Positions 36,418 to 48,458 of a stretch of 64,000 nt of DNA are shown in pieces. Position numbers and translations under genes: made by a program. Under the pieces are notes generated by a model. That model made no database searches and had not been told where the DNA came from. It worked only from the letters and a program-made list of their open reading frames with translations. Within the stretch, counting starts at the first letter, position 1; every line of letters starts with the position of its first letter. Origin of the DNA: a bacterium (GTDB lineage Bacteria; Zhuqueibacterota; QNDG01; JAFGCO01); the NCBI GenBank assembly GCA_016932575.1, contig JAFGCO010000055.1, forward strand, positions 310,001 to 374,000, in the 5' to 3' direction.

Positions 36418-37242
36418 GAGTTTGTGTGTAACCGGATAAATCCAGAGTGCCCTTTGGATTTCGGAACCATTGAACAGTCATTAAATTCTATAAAAACAAT
36501 ATATTTCAAAACAACCGGGCGCTCGCTTTGCCAGGGCAGCGGCAATTTTTACACAGCCTCTGTGTTCTGATTCAGGTAAAAAGGAAACCGAATCCCCGTT
36601 ACCTCGTCTTGCTTCATCCTGACTTAACTACAGGATAAAAATGCGTTCCTGTATGGTTCATTTGTATGTATTATTCTTTATTTTTTTTAAATGCCGGTTA
36701 ACAAAATGACAATATGATAAAATTACAAACCGCCCTGTTTTATTTCTGAAGTATGCAATAATATTTTGTTTTTGATAATTTAACATGTTGATCTTTCAAT
36801 CATTCTGTAATTGTTTATTGTTTAATTATTATAATATAATAATATGAAAAATTTTTAATATTCATGTCGCACTGTTTTATATCCACGGTTTTTTCCTGAA
36901 AACAATACATTTCAGTCCATTTTACGGCATATTCTTCTTGTTTCGGCAATAAATTCCGATTCAAATTGCATATTTTCAGCATTTCTGTGCAGCTTTAAAA
37001 TTTGTATTTTAAATAAGATATAACACTATACTAATATTTCGGCATATATATTGCTTTAACATTTGATAAATCGTGTGCGGAAAACATGAGGAGGCGTTTA
37101 TAGAAAAAAAGTTCTCTATCGATAATCATCAAATGAATTCTTTAAAATTGAAGTGTCATCATTCTCCTGTAATTTAAAAAGTTAGAGTATCAAAAATATT
37201 TATCCCCTCCCCCATGTGTGTCAAAAACAAAGGAGAAATGTC
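36418..37242 (+). other. 825-base AT-rich gap upstream of the pilin genes
   Basis: No coding region is visible. Just after the membrane-protein gene is a terminator-like hairpin (AAATCCAGAG / CTTTGGATTT, 36438-36461) with no T-run. Further on the DNA becomes extremely AT-rich, with overlapping TATAAT boxes (36830-36840) and only a weak TTGTTT -35. The tad operon promoter must lie here, and the length suggests complex control. No c-di-GMP riboswitch or other known leader was recognised. Confidence 0.4.
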
Positions 37243-37410
37243 ATGAAAGTTCTGCATTTGCTCAGAGCAATCGCCCGAAGGGAAGAAGGACAGACACTGG
37301 CTGAATATGCCTTGATTCTCGTTCTCATTGCTGTCGTGGTCATTGCCGCAGTCACTCTGCTGGGAACTCAGATCCAGGGTGTACTGCAATCCATCGCCAA
37401 TGCACTTTAA
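37243..37410 (+). CDS. flp: Flp/Fap-type pilin
   Basis: The 55-residue prepilin has a short basic leader ending in Gly, then QTLAEYALILVLIAVVVIAA, the Flp signature with Glu at +5 and Tyr at +6 of the mature protein. Prepilin peptidase would cut after REEG. The mature pilin is almost only a hydrophobic helix, as in other Flp pili. AAGGAG precedes the ATG. It is the first gene of the tad locus and probably the major pilin. Confidence 0.92.
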   Translation: MKVLHLLRAIARREEGQTLAEYALILVLIAVVVIAAVTLLGTQIQGVLQSIANAL

Positions 37411-37428: not shown

Positions 37429-37578
37429 ATGCGAGGTTTAGTCAAAAGAATCGAAGGGCAAACGTTGGGTGAGTTTGTACTGATCCTTCTGCTGATCGTG
37501 ATTGTCACGATTGTGGCGCTCACATTATTGGGAACCAATCTCTTGGCCTTCTGGAATCAGATAAGCAATGCTTTGTAA
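37429..37578 (+). CDS. Second, shorter Flp-type pilin
   Basis: A 49-residue frame lies 18 bases after the first flp and is clearly its paralogue. It has a basic leader (MRGLVKRIEG), then QTLGEFVLILLLIVIVTIVA and TLLGTNLLAFWNQISNAL, which parallels TLLGTQIQGVLQSIANAL of the first. The processing site and Glu+5 are kept; Tyr+6 is Phe. It may be a minor pilin or a decaying duplicate. No strong ribosome-binding site is seen, so it may depend on translation of the first gene. Confidence 0.8.
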   Translation: MRGLVKRIEGQTLGEFVLILLLIVIVTIVALTLLGTNLLAFWNQISNAL

Positions 37579-37681: not shown

Positions 37682-37735
37682 CGTTCTCAATGAAGCGGTA
37701 TTGCTAAAATCAGTCAATCGGGAAGGACATTGACG

Positions 37736-38119
37736 ATGTTGAGAAAATTGATTCATAATCAGGAGGGTCAATCCCTGGTAGAGTTAGTGCTGGTGATTCC
37801 CATCTTTATTTTTCTTCTGTTTGGCATCATTGAATTCGGCAGGGCGTGGGAAACGCTCAATATTATGACAAGCGCAGCAAGAGAGGGTGCCCGGGTTGCT
37901 GCAGTCACCAATCCCAACGTATCAAGAGCCTCTAATGCTGCGCAAAGAATACTCTCTGCAGGCAATGTCAGTAATGCATCGGTTTCGGTAACCGGACCCG
38001 ACGGCAACGGAGAAGTCCAGGTTACAGTCACTGTCAGTTATGCGCCCATGAGCAATATCATACCCGGTCTTGGACCGATGTCCCTTTCAAGAAGTACTTC
38101 GATGCATTGGGAAGGTTAA
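37736..38119 (+). CDS. TadE-like pseudopilin
   Basis: The 127-residue protein begins with a short leader and the TadE signature EGQSLVELVLVIPIFIFLLFGIIEFGRAWE. REGARVAAVTNP and a small extracytoplasmic domain follow. TadE proteins are processed like pilins and are needed for Flp pilus assembly. GGAAGGA precedes the ATG at 37736; an upstream TTG at 37730 is less likely. Confidence 0.88.
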   Translation: MLRKLIHNQEGQSLVELVLVIPIFIFLLFGIIEFGRAWETLNIMTSAAREGARVAAVTNPNVSRASNAAQRILSAGNVSNASVSVTGPDGNGEVQVTVTVSYAPMSNIIPGLGPMSLSRSTSMHWEG

Positions 38120-38137: not shown

Positions 38138-38965
38138 ATGATTAAAGTGCGATCGATCATCATTGTGGCCCTTGTGCTCAGCGGGGCTGTCACTTACGGA
38201 TTATATCAGTATATGGAAAATCAAAAGGTCACATCTGAAGAAAAAGACGAAGGGTATAAGAATGTCATTTTAGCCAATGTGCATCTGCCTATCGGGACAA
38301 AAATTGAAGAATCCAATGTGCGGAGGATTGCCTGGCCTGCCAAGCTGCTGCCCAAAGACCACTATTCTGAGATATCCCAGGTTGTGGGTCGCGTAATGAA
38401 AGCAGAAGCATTTCCGGGGGATGTGATTATAGAGAGCAAATTGGCACCGATCGGATCTGAAGGAGGATTTTCCAGCATTATACCTCCGGGTATGCGTGCC
38501 CTGACAGTCGAAGTGAACACCTATGTAGGTGTGGGGGGATTTATTCTTCCAAATACACGTGTAGATGTATTGGTGACGGTTGCATCATATTCAGACAAAG
38601 ATGAAGCATCCACAAGAATTATTCTCGAGAATATCAAAGTCCTGGCCGTAGATCAGACTTTCCAGAGAAAAGGGGACGATCCGGTCACCGTACAAACGGT
38701 GACACTGCTTGTGACTCCGGATCAGGCAGAAAAACTGGTACTTGCAAGCACTGAGGGAAAGCTGCAATTGACTTTAAGGAACGACTCAGACAACGCGCAA
38801 ATGACGACAAGCGGTGTTCAATTAAAAGAATTGGTGGCCAAGAAAACCACCATAAACCGTCGGATCACCAAGCCTTCTGCATCCAGGAATAAAAAAGTAG
38901 TGGAAGTGATTCATTCGGGCGAACGGGAAGAGATCACATTCGAAGACGGAGAAAGAAAAGAATAA
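38138..38965 (+). CDS. cpaB: Flp pilus assembly protein CpaB (RcpC)
   Basis: The 275-residue protein has an N-terminal membrane helix (about 7-25), a SAF domain (VILANVHLPIGTKIEESNVRRIAWP) and the CpaB core: PPGMRALTVEVN, VGGFILPNTRVDVLVT, TLLVTPDQAEKLVLASTEGKLQLTLR. CpaB/RcpC acts in the periplasm, probably linking secretin and peptidoglycan or modifying pilus export. It follows tadE by 18 bases. Confidence 0.92.
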   Translation: MIKVRSIIIVALVLSGAVTYGLYQYMENQKVTSEEKDEGYKNVILANVHLPIGTKIEESNVRRIAWPAKLLPKDHYSEISQVVGRVMKAEAFPGDVIIESKLAPIGSEGGFSSIIPPGMRALTVEVNTYVGVGGFILPNTRVDVLVTVASYSDKDEASTRIILENIKVLAVDQTFQRKGDDPVTVQTVTLLVTPDQAEKLVLASTEGKLQLTLRNDSDNAQMTTSGVQLKELVAKKTTINRRITKPSASRNKKVVEVIHSGEREEITFEDGERKE

Positions 38966-39035: not shown

Positions 39036-40130
39036 ATGGCTATTTTTTCGGATAGTACATTTTGTAAAAAGGGATTTGCGGTAATACTGTTGATTTTACT
39101 CTTTGCTAATTATGCGCAGAGTCTGACAGAGGATGTTGAGGTATTGGATATCTATTCTGGCCAATCGGAAGTCCTCGATTTCGAAAAGCCCGTTAGCCGG
39201 ATTGCGATATCGAATCCTGATGTGGCCAGCGCCAGTGTCATTACTCCGCTTCAGATTTTAATTGACGGTAAAAAAACCGGTATCACAACCCTGGTAGTCT
39301 GGCCTGAAAAAGGCACCTATATGAAGTATAAATTAAGGGTTGTTGCCGGGGTTTCGAAAGAGCAGGTCATGCTTAATGTCAAATTTATCGAAGTGAATAA
39401 AAGTGCTTTAAAAACACTGGGATTTGATTTTTTAGTAAAAAAATTCAATGTCAGAGAAGAAGTGATGGATATGGGATCCTACGCCGGAAAGGTCAATGAT
39501 CCGTCAGATCCCCTGATTCTGGGCAATTCCGTTGATTTCTTTTTTAATTCGACGACCCAGAATATATCAGGTATTATTAAAGCTCTGTGGGAAGACAACC
39601 TTCTGACGGTTCTGGCAGCACCGAATTTAAGTGCCATCAGCGGAGCGGAAGCCCGGTTTCTGGCAGGAGGTGAGTTCCCGATTCCTCTTGTATCCGGAAC
39701 AGGCGGTTCGCAGAGCATATCGATTGTATTTAAAGAATATGGTGTCCGGTTAAAGTTTGTGCCCACAGTTCTCAGTTCGAAGCTAATCAATATTAAAGTA
39801 GAGGCAGAGGTCAGCAACCTGGATTTTGAAAATGGTATTATCCTGAGCGGATTCCGAATTCCCTCCCTCGATACCCGTAAGGCAGAAACGGTTGTTGAAC
39901 TGGAAGAAGGGCAATATTTTATTTTGGGAGGACTGCTCTCTTCAGATATGGCGAAAACCGTTTCTAAAATACCGGGCCTTGGACATATTCCCATTCTTGG
40001 AAAACTCTTCAGCAGTGAGCGGTATTTAAACAATGAAAGCGAGCTTCTCATCACATTGTCACCGAAGATTGTCAGGGGGATCGGTGAAAATGAAATTCCT
40101 GCCATGAAGCTTCAGGCTGATGACAAGTAA
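39036..40130 (+). CDS. cpaC: Secretin CpaC (RcpA)
   Basis: The 364-residue protein has a signal peptide (1-29) and an N-terminal pilus-secretin domain (VSRIAISNPDVASASVITPLQILIDGKKTGITTLVVW). The secretin core follows (LLTVLAAPNLSAISGAEARFLAGGEFPIPL, GVRLKFVPTVL, LGHIPILGKLFSSERYLNNESELLITLSPKIV). It forms the outer-membrane pore of the Flp machine and supports a diderm envelope. It is on the short side for the family. Confidence 0.92.
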   Translation: MAIFSDSTFCKKGFAVILLILLFANYAQSLTEDVEVLDIYSGQSEVLDFEKPVSRIAISNPDVASASVITPLQILIDGKKTGITTLVVWPEKGTYMKYKLRVVAGVSKEQVMLNVKFIEVNKSALKTLGFDFLVKKFNVREEVMDMGSYAGKVNDPSDPLILGNSVDFFFNSTTQNISGIIKALWEDNLLTVLAAPNLSAISGAEARFLAGGEFPIPLVSGTGGSQSISIVFKEYGVRLKFVPTVLSSKLINIKVEAEVSNLDFENGIILSGFRIPSLDTRKAETVVELEEGQYFILGGLLSSDMAKTVSKIPGLGHIPILGKLFSSERYLNNESELLITLSPKIVRGIGENEIPAMKLQADDK

Positions 40131-40156: not shown

Positions 40157-41137
40157 ATGAAAAAGTTCATCAAAGAGACAAAGGGAAATGTCATCGTCTT
40201 TACCGCGATTGCCATGACCTGTATGATCGGTTTTGCTGCACTCTCCATTGATGTGAGCACGCTTCTGACGGCGCGCAATGAACTGCAATGTGCGACAGAT
40301 GCAGCCGCCCTGTCAGGCGCAACGGGATTATTGGAAAGTTACCCGGAATCCAGAATCCGGGCCATAGCCACGGCCGGCCGGAACCAGTGCATGAACCAGT
40401 GTGTTGACTTAACGGCCTCCGATGTTACTTTTCCTCAGACCAACCAGATCATGGTGCAGGCCCAGTTACCCGTCACTCTGAATTTTTCACCGGTTCTGGG
40501 GATCAATTCGGCCAATATATCCGCAATAGCCGTGGCCGAACTGGGAACCATTGTGGGGACGAAGGGTCTCAAACCCTGGGCCGTTCCGGACATGAATTAT
40601 GAACCGGGTGATATTGTCTGCATCAAGGCAGGCGTGTTGGGGGCCCCGGGTACCGAGCCCAGTTTTTTCTATCCAATCGATTTTCCGCCTATGAATCGGG
40701 GTATACCTGAATCGGGTGCCTGTGTTTACCGGGAAAACATCATTCACACCAGCAGCAGCTATGTTTCTGTCGGTGATATTCTGCAGGTCGAGCCCGGCAA
40801 TATGGTTGGACCCACCCAGCAAGGGGTCAACAGTTTAATCGGTCAGGATCCGGACGCTTACTGGGATCCTGGATTTGGGGCGACCGGCGGAGTCGTGAAT
40901 TCCAGCTCGGGCCAGGATGGAAGTTCCCTCAGTCCGCGGGTGGTGATTATTCCGATGTACGATCCCACTCTGCCGCCGGATTCCGGAAGGAATAATATTA
41001 CTGTAACCCGTCTGGGTGCCTTTTTTGTGACTGGATTTCAGGGGAAAAGTCTCTATGGCACATTCATGACGATTTGGCATCATGGCACGTTCGGAGGCGG
41101 CAGTTCGATGCTGAAAGGCGTCAGGCTCGTTCAATAA
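40157..41137 (+). CDS. TadG-like pilus assembly protein
   Basis: The 326-residue protein starts with the Tad/TadG N-terminal domain: GNVIVFTAIAMTCMIGFAALSIDVSTLLTARNELQCATDAAALSGA, a membrane helix followed by a conserved helix. A Cys-containing segment (NQCMNQC) and a beta-rich extracytoplasmic part follow. It lacks the VWA domain seen in many TadG proteins. It probably works with TadE as a minor pseudopilin. GGGGGG precedes the ATG. Confidence 0.83.
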   Translation: MKKFIKETKGNVIVFTAIAMTCMIGFAALSIDVSTLLTARNELQCATDAAALSGATGLLESYPESRIRAIATAGRNQCMNQCVDLTASDVTFPQTNQIMVQAQLPVTLNFSPVLGINSANISAIAVAELGTIVGTKGLKPWAVPDMNYEPGDIVCIKAGVLGAPGTEPSFFYPIDFPPMNRGIPESGACVYRENIIHTSSSYVSVGDILQVEPGNMVGPTQQGVNSLIGQDPDAYWDPGFGATGGVVNSSSGQDGSSLSPRVVIIPMYDPTLPPDSGRNNITVTRLGAFFVTGFQGKSLYGTFMTIWHHGTFGGGSSMLKGVRLVQ

Positions 41138-41188: not shown

Positions 41189-42421
41189 ATGGTTTTCAGC
41201 AAAATGAACACATCCCAAAATCTAAATAAATCCATTCTTTTGCTTGATACAAATGATGCATCGGCGAGGCATATCAAAACAATACTGGAATGTCTGGATG
41301 AGGTCGAAATCATCCATGAGGGGAAAGAAATTAATGAATTTTTATCTCTGATTCGAAAGCATACACCGGATATTGTGATTTTTAATCTATCGCCATCTCT
41401 GGAAGCCAGCATCAATCTGTCAAGACAGATGACCAGCATGTTCCCGGAGGTTACCCTCATTGCAGCTGCTGATACAATGGACACCTCTGTTATTCTGAAG
41501 GTTATGCGTGCCCGGGTACGGGAATTTTTAAAGCAGCCGGTCAGTCAAGATGAACTTTTAAGCGTGATCCACCATGTTTTCAGCGAAAAGGAAGCGGCAT
41601 TATCCCTGAAAACCGTGGAAAGCAAAATCATTACTTTCTTTGGACCCAAGGGAGGCGTGGGAACCACAACGGTCGCCACCAATATGGCCACTTCACTGGC
41701 CAGACATACAAAAAAAGATGTGATTATCGTCGATCTCGATCTGCAGTTCGGCAATGTCGCATTACATATGAATGTGAAATCCAAATACTCTATTCTTGAC
41801 ATTGTCAATTGCATTGATCAGATAGAAATTCCCCTTTTAAAATCACAAATGCCCAAGGGCACAAACGGCGTTTCAGTGTTGTCAGTGCCATCCCGTATCG
41901 AGGATGTGGAAAACATCAAATCGGTTCATATTGAAAAATTATTGCTGATGCTCCGCAAGGTATTTGATTATATTATTATCGACACCCACAATGCATTCGA
42001 TGATCTTTCAATCAAAGCCATGGACGAATCCAATTTTGTGCTTCTTGTTACCACCCTGGATGTGCCTTCATTATTTCATACAAAAAGAAGCCTGCAGCTT
42101 TTTCAGAAAATGGCGTACACCATGGAAAAGCTGTTTATTGTCATCAATCGGTATAATGCTTTGGAAGAATTTGATTTAAAATCCACGGAAAAGATGCTGG
42201 ATTTTCCGATTTTCTGGTCCATTCCGGAACAGGATTATCAAACCATGATTTCTTCCATTAACAGAGGGAATCCCATATCAAGCATGAAACCGGATTTAAA
42301 ATTAAGCCAGAATTTTTTAGAAATGGCTATGAAATTTAATGGTTTATACCATAAAAAGACTCAGGATGAAAAATCTCAAAAAAAACGAAGTCTATTTATG
42401 TTTAAGAAAACTGTGAAATAA
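41189..42421 (+). CDS. tadZ: TadZ/CpaE-like ATPase with pseudo-receiver domain
   Basis: The 410-residue protein has a receiver-like N-terminus (about 14-128) and a ParA/MinD ATPase domain (about 145-390). In the receiver the phosphate-accepting Asp position reads DIVIFN (N66), so phosphorylation is unlikely, while the switch Lys (FLKQP) is kept. The P-loop is [10 protein letters not shown] (about 152-161), with the signature Lys but without the second Lys, as in other CpaE/TadZ proteins. It should place the pilus machine in the cell. Start is ATG 41189 or 41204. Confidence 0.88.
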
Positions 42422-42432
42422 GGGAATTTGCA

Positions 42433-43860
42433 ATGGGTTTGAAAGACCGCCTATATGTCAAGACTGCTGATGGAGACAATTCACCTCTCGAGTTTACGGG
42501 CATTGATCGAAGTTCGCTTGGCGATGCCCTTGTTGATATGAAATCGAGTCAGCAGCATGACTACATGGGATTAAAAGAGAGAATACACAGACGTTTAATC
42601 GACAAGCTTGACTTGACCAAACTATCATCCATTCCAAGAGACGTGCTGACAAAACAGGTCAGAGAGGTCATTGAAGATTTACTGCTCGAAGACATCGAAA
42701 TCGGACCTGATTTTAACCGTGATATATTAACCAAGGAAATTCTGGATGAAACATTTGGATTGGGTCCGCTGGAACCGCTTTTAAATGATCCGACTGTGTC
42801 TGATATTCTGGTCAATGGCTATAATCAGGTGTTTGTTGAACGATATGGAAGGCTTGAGCTGACCAATACAGTATTTAAAGATGATAATCACCTTTTGAAT
42901 ATTATTGACCGCATTGTATCAAAGATCGGGCGCCGTGTGGATGAAAGCAGCCCTATGGTAGATGCCCGGCTTCCGGATGGTTCCAGAGTCAATGCAATCA
43001 TTCCTCCATTGGCCATTGACGGACCCAGTGTGTCTATCAGAAAATTCGGAATCAATAAAATATCAGTCCAAGATCTGATCAACCTTGGAACATTGACAAC
43101 CTCTGTCTCACAAATGATGAAAGCGGCTGTCAGGTCACGGCTGAACATATTAATCTCGGGAGGGACCGGTTCCGGAAAGACCACCCTGTTAAATATACTC
43201 TCGGGATTTATACCTGCATCTGAACGCATTGTGACCATCGAAGATGCGGCAGAACTTCAGCTTCGCCAGGAGCATGTTGTTCGCCTGGAAACCCGTCCGC
43301 CAAACCTTGAAGGGAAAGGCCGTGTTGCCCAGTATGATCTGGTTCGGAATGCCCTGCGGATGCGTCCGGACAGGATTGTTGTGGGTGAAGTGCGCGGGGC
43401 AGAAGCGCTCGATATGCTGCAGGCCATGAATACAGGCCATGATGGATCCCTGACGACTTTGCATGCCAATACAACCCGCGACGCGCTTCGCCGGCTTGAG
43501 ACCATGATACTGATGGCAGGGAGCAATCTCACAGAAAAAGCCATGCGCGAGCAGATCAGTTCGGCCATCAATATCATTATTCAGACGACAAGATTGAGCG
43601 ATGGTACCCGCAAAGTGATTAAAATATCTGAAATAACCGGCATGGAAGGCGATACGATTTCATTGCAGGATATATTTGTTTTTGAAAAAATGGGTGTTCG
43701 TGAAGATGGCCAGGTTCTGGGCGGATTTCGAACGACAGGTCTCCGTCCGAAATTCGCGGAACAACTGGAAACATCGGGAATTATGCTGCCTCCAGATTTA
43801 TTCGAACCAAAACTTGAAGTGCTTGTTGATCAAAATGCGGAGGAAGAGCAGGAGTCATGA
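42433..43860 (+). CDS. cpaF: Flp pilus assembly ATPase CpaF (TadA)
   Basis: The 475-residue secretion ATPase powers pilin export and assembly. It shows an N-terminal helical part, [27 protein letters not shown], Walker [14 protein letters not shown] (about 239-251), the Asp box [10 protein letters not shown], Walker [21 protein letters not shown] and the His box [12 protein letters not shown]. Its end overlaps tadB by 4 bases. Confidence 0.96.
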
Positions 43861-44825
43861 CTATTTTATTGATTGTTTTTTATGTGGCCATTGTCTTGCT
43901 TATTTCCGGCGTCATGTTTTTTATTGTCCGGCTCGTCCGAAACCCTGAACGGCAAATTAACAAACGGGTTGAAGAATTTTCTGAAGTGTATAATAAACAG
44001 GAAGAGGACGACACTCCCCGGATCCTTCAAAATCAGGACTTCGGTCATTTAACAGCCCTGAATACCCTGCTGGATAAGCTGAGTGTGTTGAAGAAGATAA
44101 ACCGTCTTATTAAACAGGCTGATTCAAAATTAACGGCTGCGAAGCTGATCGTTTTCATCGTGTTCATGTCATTTCTTGGATTTTTAATTGGCATGAAAAT
44201 CAATGTATTTTTTATGATTGTTTTTATGGCGGGTTTCGGCAGCATTCCCGTTGTGCATTTATATATTCAGAGAGCAAAGAGACTGAAAGCTTTTATCCGT
44301 GCCTTTCCGGATTCTATTGATATGATGGCAAGTGCGATTCGGGCTGGCCATGCCTTTAATCAGGCCATGCAGCTGGTGGGGAATGAGGCTCCTGATCCGG
44401 TAGGAATCGAATTCAAACGAACCTATGAACAGTACAATCTTGGATTGAACTTGAAGGATGTGCTTCTGGAAATGACAGACCGTGTAAACAGCCTGGATCT
44501 AAAACTTTTTGTCACTGCCATACTGCTTCAAAAAGAGACCGGCGGCAACCTGACCGAAATACTGGATAAGATAAGCTATACAATTCGTGAAAGGTTCAAA
44601 CTGATCGGGCAGATCAAAACGTTCACGGCCCAGGGCCGGATGTCTGCGATTATACTGGGAGCTTTGCCGCTTGTATTTGTCCTGTTTATATCCGGTCTGA
44701 ACCCCGATTATCTGACACCGCTCTTTCATGACAAACTGGGTCATTACTTCATACTCATTGCTGTGTTTTTACAAATCTTTGGTTTTATTGTCATTCAGAA
44801 AATTGTGAAGATCAAATACCAATAG
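43857..44825 (+). CDS. tadB: TadB-like platform protein
   Basis: The 322-residue inner-membrane protein has helices at the N-terminus (about 3-22), in the middle (about 98-135) and at the C-terminus (about 265-315). Between them is the T2SSF domain ([64 protein letters not shown]). It forms the assembly platform with TadC. ATGA coupling to cpaF is present. Confidence 0.93.
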
Positions 44826-44835
44826 GGTGGGGGAT

Positions 44836-45774
44836 ATGTCATTACAAGTCATATTTATATTGGTTTTTATTACGATTTTCCTGCTGATTTTAACTTTCCT
44901 GCTGATTATTCGAAGGATGCAGAATCCAACGGCGAGACGCATGAAGAACCTTGAAAAAACGAATATCACTGATAAAAATGACAGCCGGTTAAAGGAATTA
45001 CAAAGGAAGAAAGATGCGGTTCATGCTTCCGTTGAAAAAATGTTGGCGGATATCAGCCGGTTTGTCAAGCAGGACAAAGAAAAACAGACAAGAATGCAAG
45101 CGGCTCTCATTCAGGCAGGATATCATCGGGAAAACTGTATCAAAATTTTTTTAGGGATCAAGCTGTTGACAGCTGTGGGATGTTTTCTGCTGTATTTGTT
45201 TATGGGATTACAGGGAGACCGCCCATTCAATGTTGTTTTACTGATGTCTATCATTATGGGAGCCGTGGGTTTTATTCTACCCAATGTGGTCCTGCGTTTC
45301 AAAACACAAAAACGACGGGCTGTGATCGCGCAGGCACTGCCCGATGCTCTTGATTTACTGGTGATTACTGTCGAAGCCGGATTGGGATTAAACGCAGCCC
45401 TGATGCGTGTCGGCACAGATCTGGTAATGCGATGCCCGCCTCTTGCCCAGGAATTCAATCGGGTCAATCAGGATCTCAGAACGGGGAAACCCCGCGATAA
45501 AGCACTCAGGAGCTTGAGCGACCGGAATCAAATTGAGGATCTCAGAATACTGGTCGGTGCATTAATTCTGGCCGACCGCCTGGGAACCAGTATCGCAGAC
45601 ACCTTACGTGCGCAGGCAGATTCTCTCAGAACCCGTATCCGTCAAAAAGCGGAAGAGCAGGCGGCAAAAGCCGGTATAAAATTGTTATTTCCGCTTGTCT
45701 TCTTTGTTCTGCCTGCTTTGATTATTATTTTAATGGGACCTGGATTGATTGCTTTATACAGAACATTTCAGTAA
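44836..45774 (+). CDS. tadC: TadC-like platform protein
   Basis: The 312-residue protein is the second T2SSF-domain platform subunit. It has N-terminal and C-terminal membrane helices and the TadC block ALPDALDLLVITVEAGLGLNAALMRVG, with LGTSIADTLRAQADSLRTRIRQKAEEQAAKAGIKLLFPLVF near the end. The ATG at 44836 follows a G-rich ribosome-binding site; a GTG at 44827 is inside it. It starts 10 bases after tadB. Confidence 0.93.
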   Translation: MSLQVIFILVFITIFLLILTFLLIIRRMQNPTARRMKNLEKTNITDKNDSRLKELQRKKDAVHASVEKMLADISRFVKQDKEKQTRMQAALIQAGYHRENCIKIFLGIKLLTAVGCFLLYLFMGLQGDRPFNVVLLMSIIMGAVGFILPNVVLRFKTQKRRAVIAQALPDALDLLVITVEAGLGLNAALMRVGTDLVMRCPPLAQEFNRVNQDLRTGKPRDKALRSLSDRNQIEDLRILVGALILADRLGTSIADTLRAQADSLRTRIRQKAEEQAAKAGIKLLFPLVFFVLPALIIILMGPGLIALYRTFQ

Positions 45775-45800
45775 TATTTACAAAAATATATTTGAGAACA

Positions 45801-46775
45801 ATGATACAAAATCTGAGTACACACAAAGAATATAAAATCCATGTTTACAGAGCGAGCTCGCTGCTTTCACGTCTTTTGGGCCTTTTGGGCACAAATGCGC
45901 CCGTGTTGAATTCGGCATTACATATTCAGCCCTGTCATGCTATCCATACATTTGGCATGAAATATTCAATCGATGTTTTATTTCTGGATCAGAATGGATG
46001 TATCGTTGGTGTTTTTGAAAAACTCAAACCCAATGCCGTTTCAAAATCCGTAAAGGAAGCCGTTTCTGTTCTGGAATTGGCTCCGGGCACCATCGAGCAA
46101 TGCCAGTTTAGAACCGGTCAATTTCTCCGGTTTCAAGCCGATGATGAATTTAGACCGGAACTGGCATCGCTTCGGAACTTATTTCACTGGCCGATTAATC
46201 TGATCATTGCTTTATTTTGGAGCAAGTTTATCCTGACAGCGGGAGGCCACGCCGTTGCATTTCCCCATGCCATGAATTTTGGCATTTTGATTCATAACAC
46301 TTTGTTGATGCTTCTTTTTTTAACCCGAAGAAAGAGTCATGCTACATCCTTTAAAATCTTTGACTGGATTGTTCCTGTTTTGACCCTGATTTTTACTCTG
46401 TTTCTGCGTCCTGCTTCTGAAGGGGCAGGGGAACTCAATGTTCTCTCTGCAATTTTTCAGTATTTGGGGCTGGCCGGAATTATCGTGTCTTTGCTGAGTC
46501 TTGGACGCAGTTTCGGTATTATTCCGGCAAACCGGTCCATTCAAACCCAGGGGGCCTATGGGATTGTCCGGCATCCATTATATATCAGTGAGATTATTTT
46601 TCATGCGGGTTTTTTCCTGGGGAATATCACAGTTCATAATGGCCTTTTGATTGTTCTGATTTTGGCCGGACAGCTATGGCGCTCAATTTCGGAGGAAAGA
46701 TTGCTGACATTGGATGCGGCTTACAGGGCATATTCAGAACGGGTTCGGTACCGGTTCATTCCGGGTATTGTCTGA
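45801..46775 (+). CDS. Fusion of a DUF192 domain with an isoprenylcysteine/phospholipid methyltransferase-like membrane domain
   Basis: The 324-residue protein joins two families. Residues about 10-112 are DUF192, with the hallmark CHAIHTFGMKYSIDVLFLD. Residues about 125-324 form a polytopic membrane domain with the ICMT/PEMT-type SAM site GAYGIVRHPLYISEI (251-265) and the distal EERLL...Y..Y...VRYRFIPG. DUF192 genes often lie at the end of tad loci, but attachment to a membrane methyltransferase is unusual. It follows tadC by 26 bases in the same direction, suggesting a role in pilin or machine modification. Its substrate is unknown. Confidence 0.8.
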   Translation: MIQNLSTHKEYKIHVYRASSLLSRLLGLLGTNAPVLNSALHIQPCHAIHTFGMKYSIDVLFLDQNGCIVGVFEKLKPNAVSKSVKEAVSVLELAPGTIEQCQFRTGQFLRFQADDEFRPELASLRNLFHWPINLIIALFWSKFILTAGGHAVAFPHAMNFGILIHNTLLMLLFLTRRKSHATSFKIFDWIVPVLTLIFTLFLRPASEGAGELNVLSAIFQYLGLAGIIVSLLSLGRSFGIIPANRSIQTQGAYGIVRHPLYISEIIFHAGFFLGNITVHNGLLIVLILAGQLWRSISEERLLTLDAAYRAYSERVRYRFIPGIV

Positions 46776-46793: not shown

Positions 46794-48458
46794 CTAAGGG
46801 ATTCGCGTCGGATCGGGATTGTATGTATATATTTTATCATAATAGCGCTCTCTGGCGGGGATCGTTTGACAACAAACGGTCGATTTTGTTTTGGGTCCAA
46901 GACAGGGCCAGGTAAAATCAGCGGTTAAAAAAGCAGGCCGCTCAGTATAGTAATAACTGATGTCAGATAGATAATATTCAAATCTGTTTTTATAATTATA
47001 TTGTGCAACCTGATTATGGGTATAGTGTTTCCCTGTTTCGTAGGTTTGGTTTTGCGTGATCCATATCCCGTAGAGGTCATATACGAAAGTCATATCAGGG
47101 CGGACAATGCTTTCCCAATTGTTGTTTCGACCCAGTATGTTTCCCAATATATTTGTAAGATCTCCGTTGTCCAAATGGATCAACTCGTTTTTGTTTTTTG
47201 CTTCGTGATACACATAATTTCTGACGAATGTATTGTATGGCCCATTTAATCCATGAAAGTCATCCGCTCCAATTCGGCAAATATAATTCTGTTCATATAA
47301 ATTGCCATAAGGGTACTTTGCATGTAAATCGAGGTCCCGATCATCATAAAAGATCCCTTTCCAGGTGGAATGCTGTTCTCTGGAATAATTATAGGCCCAT
47401 ACATTGCAATTCGCCCCGCCGCCGATCACCAGAGCATGCCGCAAATATCTAAATATATTATTTTCTACCAGAGAATTTGTTGTGGCGCCATATAGTACGA
47501 TGCCGTATCCGTATCCACCCCCTCCATAATGTTCGGCATGATGACAATAACATCCGCTGATTTCCATGTGGGTTGAATGAGAAACTGAAATGTGAGCTCT
47601 GGATGTATTGTCCGATTCGACACCTTTCACCCAGCAGTTCACAGCGAAACCGAACTTTATATTGTATCCTTTTCCGTCAACAGCCGTTTTGCCGCATGAC
47701 AGTCTTTTGATGGTTAAATTTTCTATACCGATATTTTTTACAGGGAGTACTTTCCGAATTTTCAGATTTGTTGAATCATAATCATTCACCACAGAATAGG
47801 TTTTTGTTGCTCTGTCTTTCATCTGTCCTTCGGAGCCGTTGATGTCTTTAAGTTCAAGACGGGAGATCTGTCCCACGATTCCCTTTTCATGTTTGTCAAT
47901 GGATTTATCCGGATCATACCTGAACAATCGTTCCGTGATGTGTATCCAGTCTCCGGGATTGATTCCGGATAAGTCCCCGTGGATGACGCTTTCTCCTTTA
48001 TATATGTCCCGGTTTAAATTTTGATAATTTCCGGCTCTTCCATGAATATCAAAGCCGTTGACATCGGCCCGGCTTAGCTTGATGACGGTTTTGTCTGCGC
48101 CGTCCCCGAGGAAAACAATATTGCTGTCAGGATAGGTCAGATCAAAGGGTGTGACCGGTCCGGTAAATTCATAGATTCCTTCAGGAAAATATATAATGGA
48201 CATTTTTCCGTTCCGTGAATCACCTCTGGCCTTGTCCAGTGCTGTCTTGATTTGATCGGCAATACTGGATCCGGTTTCCTGAGTGACATCATAAAAGTCA
48301 GCGGCGGTTATTTTTTTCAACAGGCCCGCCTGATGCCACTCTTCCTGATATTGGACAGGGATATGGCCGATATCATGATACAGCACCTGGGCCGTTATAT
48401 TGATGGTATATATCAACATCGAAAGTATTGGAACCAAACGGTTATTATAAGTTTTCAT
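46794..48458 (-). CDS. Secreted parallel beta-helix (pectate-lyase-like) protein
   Basis: From the ATG at 48458 the protein has 554 residues with a signal peptide (about 1-22). It begins with a pectate-lyase-3/pectin-lyase-like N-terminal region (IIYFPEGIYEFTGPV, NIVFLGDGADKTVIKL). Right-handed beta-helix coils follow, rich in Asn ladders and short repeats (NIGIENLTIKRLSCG, SVSHSTHMEISGCYC, NSLVENNIFRYLRHALVIGGGANCNVWAYNY). Catalytic residues could not be assigned, so it may be a polysaccharide lyase, hydrolase or adhesin. There is no PNPFN-type sorting domain. A longer frame from 48554 would hide the signal peptide; AGGA lies 10 bases before 48458. Confidence 0.8.
   Translation of the reverse strand: MKTYNNRLVPILSMLIYTINITAQVLYHDIGHIPVQYQEEWHQAGLLKKITAADFYDVTQETGSSIADQIKTALDKARGDSRNGKMSIIYFPEGIYEFTGPVTPFDLTYPDSNIVFLGDGADKTVIKLSRADVNGFDIHGRAGNYQNLNRDIYKGESVIHGDLSGINPGDWIHITERLFRYDPDKSIDKHEKGIVGQISRLELKDINGSEGQMKDRATKTYSVVNDYDSTNLKIRKVLPVKNIGIENLTIKRLSCGKTAVDGKGYNIKFGFAVNCWVKGVESDNTSRAHISVSHSTHMEISGCYCHHAEHYGGGGYGYGIVLYGATTNSLVENNIFRYLRHALVIGGGANCNVWAYNYSREQHSTWKGIFYDDRDLDLHAKYPYGNLYEQNYICRIGADDFHGLNGPYNTFVRNYVYHEAKNKNELIHLDNGDLTNILGNILGRNNNWESIVRPDMTFVYDLYGIWITQNQTYETGKHYTHNQVAQYNYKNRFEYYLSDISYYYTERPAFLTADFTWPCLGPKTKSTVCCQTIPARERYYDKIYTYNPDPTRIP

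Follow-up and report, generated by a model that had tools for sequence, protein, structure and literature searches.

A DUF192–ICMT-like membrane methyltransferase fusion conserved downstream of tadC in Tad pilus loci

In type IV pilus systems the pilin N-termini cleaved by PilD lie on the cytoplasmic side of the membrane (PMC10191384). The domain for methylation is described as missing from TadV, the peptidase of Tad systems, and the importance of pilin methylation as unknown (PMC10191384); in Myxococcus, the Tad pilins have been suggested to be processed by PilD in the role of a general peptidase (PMC12075869). No report of Tad pilin methylation was found in the literature searched. DUF192 (PF02643, COG1430) is an uncharacterised family with solved structures (3pjy, 3m7a). 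ICMT (PF04140) methylates carboxyl groups of proteins, and we know of no prenylated substrate for an ICMT-type enzyme in bacteria. In the portions of the open-access literature searched, neither DUF192 nor an ICMT-like enzyme is described in Tad systems; the few papers joining DUF192 with the pilus, or isoprenylcysteine with the tad pilus, do not deal with the pairing as judged by title and abstract, and DUF192 is not named in a census of type IV pili in archaea. The first-pass annotation of this DNA knew of no account of such a fusion in pilus biology, and the same holds for these sources. The tad-linked pair of known domains presented here is real and conserved, and apparently undescribed.

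The window (the whole stretch of 64,000 nucleotides that was analysed) holds Flp, TadE, CpaB, RcpA, TadZ, TadA, TadB and TadC together (Table 1). With a TadG-like protein, these components amount to a complete tad gene set, as in Tad/Flp (T4cP) loci; the locus differs from them in having no TadV. The tad run contains no prepilin peptidase, in agreement with the first-pass annotation, and the genome's single Peptidase_A24 protein is unlinked to it. Compared with the list of Tad components (PMC10191384), the DUF192–methyltransferase gene is an addition.

Table 1. Features of the tad locus in the window, and positions of a small gene seen at related loci
Feature	Position	Strand
Flp prepilin, cleavage motif G/QTLAEY	37216..37410	+
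Second Flp prepilin, cleavage motif G/QTLGE	37429..37578	+
tadE pseudopilin, cleavage motif G/QSLVE	37730..38119	+
cpaB/rcpC	38138..38965	+
rcpA secretin	39036..40130	+
tadG-like (PF13400)	40157..41137	+
tadZ (receiver and ParA-like ATPase)	41189..42421	+
tadA ATPase (T2SSE)	42433..43860	+
tadB (T2SSF)	43857..44825	+
tadC (T2SSF)	44827..45774	+
DUF192–ICMT-like methyltransferase fusion, 324 aa, final gene of the tad run	45801..46775	+
DUF192 domain, (I/V)HT type, predicted cytoplasmic	45843..46130	+
Membrane methyltransferase domain of ICMT/PEMT-like type, predicted to have six membrane helices	46155..46772	+
RHPLY motif, residues 257-261; R, H, P and Y invariant in 20 fusions	46569..46583	+
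Small lipobox-like gene, related loci	L050:10594-10993, L053:1157-1579, L054:10742-11161, L055:10491-10961	
Small lipobox-like gene, related loci (continued)	L056:8968-9440, L059:6506-6944, L060:8959-9397, L071:9463-10000	

The reading frame of the fusion is uninterrupted (45792-46775, + strand); from its conserved start, an ATG at position 45801, it encodes a protein of 324 residues. The tadC stop codon lies 26 bp upstream of the gene, whose downstream neighbour is a convergent gene ending at 46794. DUF192 occupies residues 1-118 and the membrane methyltransferase about 120-324. The Pfam DUF192 match (residues 15-110) scores 40.2 bits against a cut-off of 27, and all 21 fusion copies in the phylum exceed this cut-off. 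For the C-terminal part the highest-scoring model is PEMT (PF04191; 20.5 bits, cut-off 25), followed by DUF1295 (19.3 bits, also below its cut-off) and ICMT (15.0 bits, cut-off 24). Because these scores lie under the curated cut-offs, we label this part ICMT/PEMT-like and do not assign it to either family; separate, unfused tad-linked relatives do pass the cut-off of ICMT or PEMT.

A structure model calculated from 20 homologues (mean pLDDT 82, pTM 0.61) consists of two domains. The DUF192 part superposes on 3pjy (Z 15.6 over 113 residues) and 3m7a (Z 14.0), and the methyltransferase part on Ma-ICMT (4a2n; Z 15.4, rmsd 2.9, 170 residues). Arg-257, His-258, Pro-259, Tyr-261, Glu-298, Glu-299 and Tyr-308 are invariant across 20 aligned fusions and align with their Ma-ICMT counterparts in a common pattern, GxY..RHPxY...EExL..Y. 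Conserved residues of catalytic type are thus present, and the fusion is predicted to have SAM-dependent activity. Fold and RHPxY...EE residues are shared with Ma-ICMT; the sub-threshold scores, an extra first helix and the N-terminal DUF192 set the fusion apart from the ICMT and PEMT families. Nineteen aligned homologues are conserved over the full length at 37-49% identity to the protein in the window, which excludes a chance fusion. The first-pass view that the last gene of the run joins DUF192 to a polytopic methyltransferase is therefore borne out by the single reading frame, the Pfam match and the ICMT fold of the model.

The model contains six long membrane-type helices. No hydrophobic segment precedes DUF192 and there is no signal peptide. 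The loops after successive membrane segments carry on average 0.5, 3.9, 1.0, 4.6 and 0.2 Lys plus Arg per sequence, and the C-terminal part 6.2, placing the positive charge in loops 2 and 4 and at the C-terminus. By the positive-inside rule this charge pattern over six segments, together with the lack of a signal peptide, most likely puts DUF192 in the cytoplasm along with the catalytic loop and the C-terminus. The alignment with Ma-ICMT begins only at residue 152 of the model; the additional first helix would bring the N-terminus inside. A periplasmic DUF192 is unlikely on this predicted topology, which runs counter to the periplasmic binding part proposed in the first-pass annotation.

Of the 82 genomes from the phylum, 19 contain the fusion, in 21 full-length copies; some of the homologous records bear the title 'candidate division KSB1'. 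Outside the window, 20 of 20 copies lie downstream of tadC, and tad genes adjoin the fusion in all 19 fusion genomes, although these co-occurrence counts are not phylogenetically independent. With the window's own copy, all 21 sit after tadC, as expected if the pair co-occurs with tad, and the first refuting condition named in the first-pass annotation, a fusion occurring mostly outside tad loci, does not hold. RcpC is found in 18 of the 82 genomes, 17 of which have the fusion; in the two fusion genomes without an RcpC match tadB/tadC adjoin the fusion on short contigs. The only clear tad genome without a fusion, G066, has a divergent tad locus. Ordinary DUF192 occurs in 16 genomes of the phylum, just one of which has RcpC. 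We also note in one genome without any fusion (G044; L147:3342-5028, G044:C214) an apparently decayed tad locus, in which TadE and a short cpaB fragment sit beside a TadV-like peptidase.

The DUF192 of the fusion belongs to a subfamily with a wider link to tad. DUF192 profile scores in 396 Acidobacteriota genomes split into two classes: high scorers carry (I/V)HTxxM and low scorers the usual FWMKNT. Loci were picked by score, best first, so the fractions hold for the top scorers of either class, and linkage was judged by a strong tad gene within about 8 kb on each side. In Acidobacteriota a tad gene lies near 38 of the 40 best high-scoring loci and near none of the 20 low scorers; the N-terminus is hydrophobic in 0/46 and 13/20, respectively. 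Among 395 Desulfobacterota genomes the corresponding values are 16 of the 33 best (I/V)HT proteins and 0/20 ordinary ones near tad, with hydrophobic N-termini in 2/33 and 15/20. Ordinary DUF192 is thus near tad in 0/40 loci for both phyla pooled. The association of (I/V)HT DUF192 with tad is strong; outside Acidobacteriota it is not exclusive. The DUF192 of the fusion has the fold of the known family and passes its Pfam cut-off; the subfamily differs from ordinary DUF192 in having (I/V)HTxxM in place of FWMKNT, no signal peptide and a link to tad. It offers a first testable role for part of this uncharacterised family. Nine tad-free Desulfobacterota loci (L245, L247-L251, L254, L256 and L260) carry (I/V)HT DUF192, and their neighbours may reveal a second role of the subfamily. 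A standalone protein of this type (L141:8707-9138, G031:C25) is encoded between two T2SSE-type ATPase genes, near a ParA-like gene and outside a typical tad locus.

Relatives beyond the phylum were sought by scanning species genomes with a profile of the fusion. A scan of genome contigs with the protein alone gave no relatives; with the alignment they were recovered. Fusions are also present at tad in Eisenbacteria (L071) and Tectomicrobia (L075). In Acidobacteria the methyltransferase and DUF192 are separate neighbouring genes after tadC; two loci have an ATPase-like gene between tadC and the pair (L094:6497-7903, L088:8520-9910). A plasmid search with an Acidobacterial DUF192 as query gave no match. 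Lone methyltransferases are found at tad loci of Methylococcaceae, Chloroflexota, Nocardioidaceae, Acidimicrobiaceae and Syntrophaceae. In a quick tree of the methyltransferases the fusions require two changes, the odd row being a fusion from Eisenbacteria whose contig is too short to reveal tad. For the lone tad-linked enzymes well-supported branches force a minimum of five changes, pointing to recruitment to tad loci on several occasions. This tree, in which branch supports are moderate, lends no support to the idea that the fusion and the Acidobacterial pair share a recent origin. We also considered whether the +1 residue of the pilin is tied to the enzyme. Wherever Flp and TadE were found in fusion loci of the phylum, the mature protein starts with Gln; lone-methyltransferase tad loci show Gln, Ala or Leu, and no clear link emerges.

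We propose that the fusion is a Tad-dedicated inner-membrane methyltransferase whose cytoplasmic DUF192 ties it to the Tad motor and platform, and which methylates a Tad client; we regard this prediction as evenly balanced. The ICMT/PEMT-fold part would bind SAM on the cytoplasmic side of the membrane, and the (I/V)HT DUF192 would tie the enzyme to TadA, TadB and TadC as adaptor or regulator, docking that is likewise predicted. The client would be methylated at the membrane-cytoplasm interface, the leading candidate acceptor being the newly exposed N-terminus of the Flp/TadE pilins. We favour this reading because of the constant place after tadC, the invariant ICMT-type residues and the tad-linked DUF192 subfamily. 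Against it stand the roughly half of Desulfobacterota (I/V)HT DUF192 that are tad-free and the tad locus of G066 with no fusion. Many tad loci with DUF192 have no methyltransferase nearby (3/40 in Acidobacteriota) and many carry the methyltransferase without DUF192; neither part therefore needs the other.

In its strictest form the proposal makes the enzyme a pilin N-methylase, one that acts on the alpha-amine of mature Flp/TadE once these have been cleaved and so provides what TadV lacks. The ICMT active site lies at the cytoplasmic membrane face, as do the N-termini that pilin cleavage exposes, the position established for PilD. The peptidase content of the genomes bears on this directly. 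The host's sole Peptidase_A24 protein is a 258-residue PilD (A24_N, PF06750, 112.6 bits; CPSC and CRQC pairs) near a T2SSE-type ATPase reading frame. This peptidase, unlinked from the tad locus, is a standard bifunctional PilD with its methylase domain in place. The second refuting condition of the first-pass annotation, a normal bifunctional prepilin peptidase methylating Flp, thus holds by half: such a PilD is present, and it might methylate Flp. All six fusion genomes of the host's own order, the host included, have one bifunctional PilD and no other A24 protein. Twelve others have only TadV-like peptidases, on tad contigs and without A24_N, and in one genome (70% complete) neither type was seen. 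Thirteen fusion genomes are thus without a PilD-type methylase domain, as strict N-methylation would have it given the description of TadV (PMC10191384); the motif residues of the fusion are invariant with and without PilD. Outside the phylum, A24_N exceeds its cut-off in 11 of 23 genomes with the methyltransferase at tad. Need does not predict presence: with PilD in six fusion genomes and A24_N in 11/23 others, the fusion is no marker of PilD-less genomes, and the enzyme is not tied to the absence of the PilD methylase. A missing methylating peptidase, which the first-pass annotation offered as the reason for the enzyme, is contradicted by the host and five further genomes. The enzyme may still act on pilins, and we hold strict N-methylation to be possible, if somewhat unlikely. 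The fusion is unrelated by sequence to PilD and TadV, having no A24 or A24_N match and no protease domain in Pfam; it would work on the same membrane face, possibly on pilins.

Extended to many Tad pili, the proposal would have a cytoplasmic DUF192 subunit and an ICMT-fold enzyme N-methylating cleaved Flp/TadE independently of PilD, with recruitment on several occasions and joining into a single protein in KSB1, Eisenbacteria and Tectomicrobia. As a whole this is speculative and quite unlikely. If true, it would define a second class of pilin methylase unrelated to PilD. Because the dedicated methyltransferase has a gene of its own at Tad loci, it can be deleted with pilin cleavage left intact, which makes the question directly testable.

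Other acceptors have to be weighed. A lipid acceptor, be it a phospholipid or another lipid of the membrane that pilus assembly or anchoring requires locally, would suit the PEMT model's lead among the Pfam scores; a tad-linked relative also weakly matches LmtA, a lipid A 1-phosphate O-methyltransferase within the ICMT-like families. The strict tie to tad and the fusion to a cytoplasmic DUF192 are hard to account for with a lipid substrate, which we consider unlikely. Regulatory methylation, of carboxyl or other groups, of TadB, TadC, TadG or TadA would agree with the constant place after tadC and with the action of the ICMT branch on protein carboxyl groups; we find it distinctly doubtful. 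A passenger held in the operon by linkage, with no pilus role, is conceivable for a last gene whose 21 copies could share one operon ancestor, but is very improbable given motif residues invariant despite 37-49% identity to the window's protein and the presence of fusions, adjacent separate genes and lone methyltransferase or DUF192 genes at tad loci in several phyla.

In a number of KSB1 loci, and in that of Eisenbacteria, tadC and the fusion are separated by a small gene (about 115-135 residues; Table 1). Its product has a lipobox-like N-terminus and a conserved C-terminal end of LK(V/I)W type, and is possibly a tad-locus lipoprotein.
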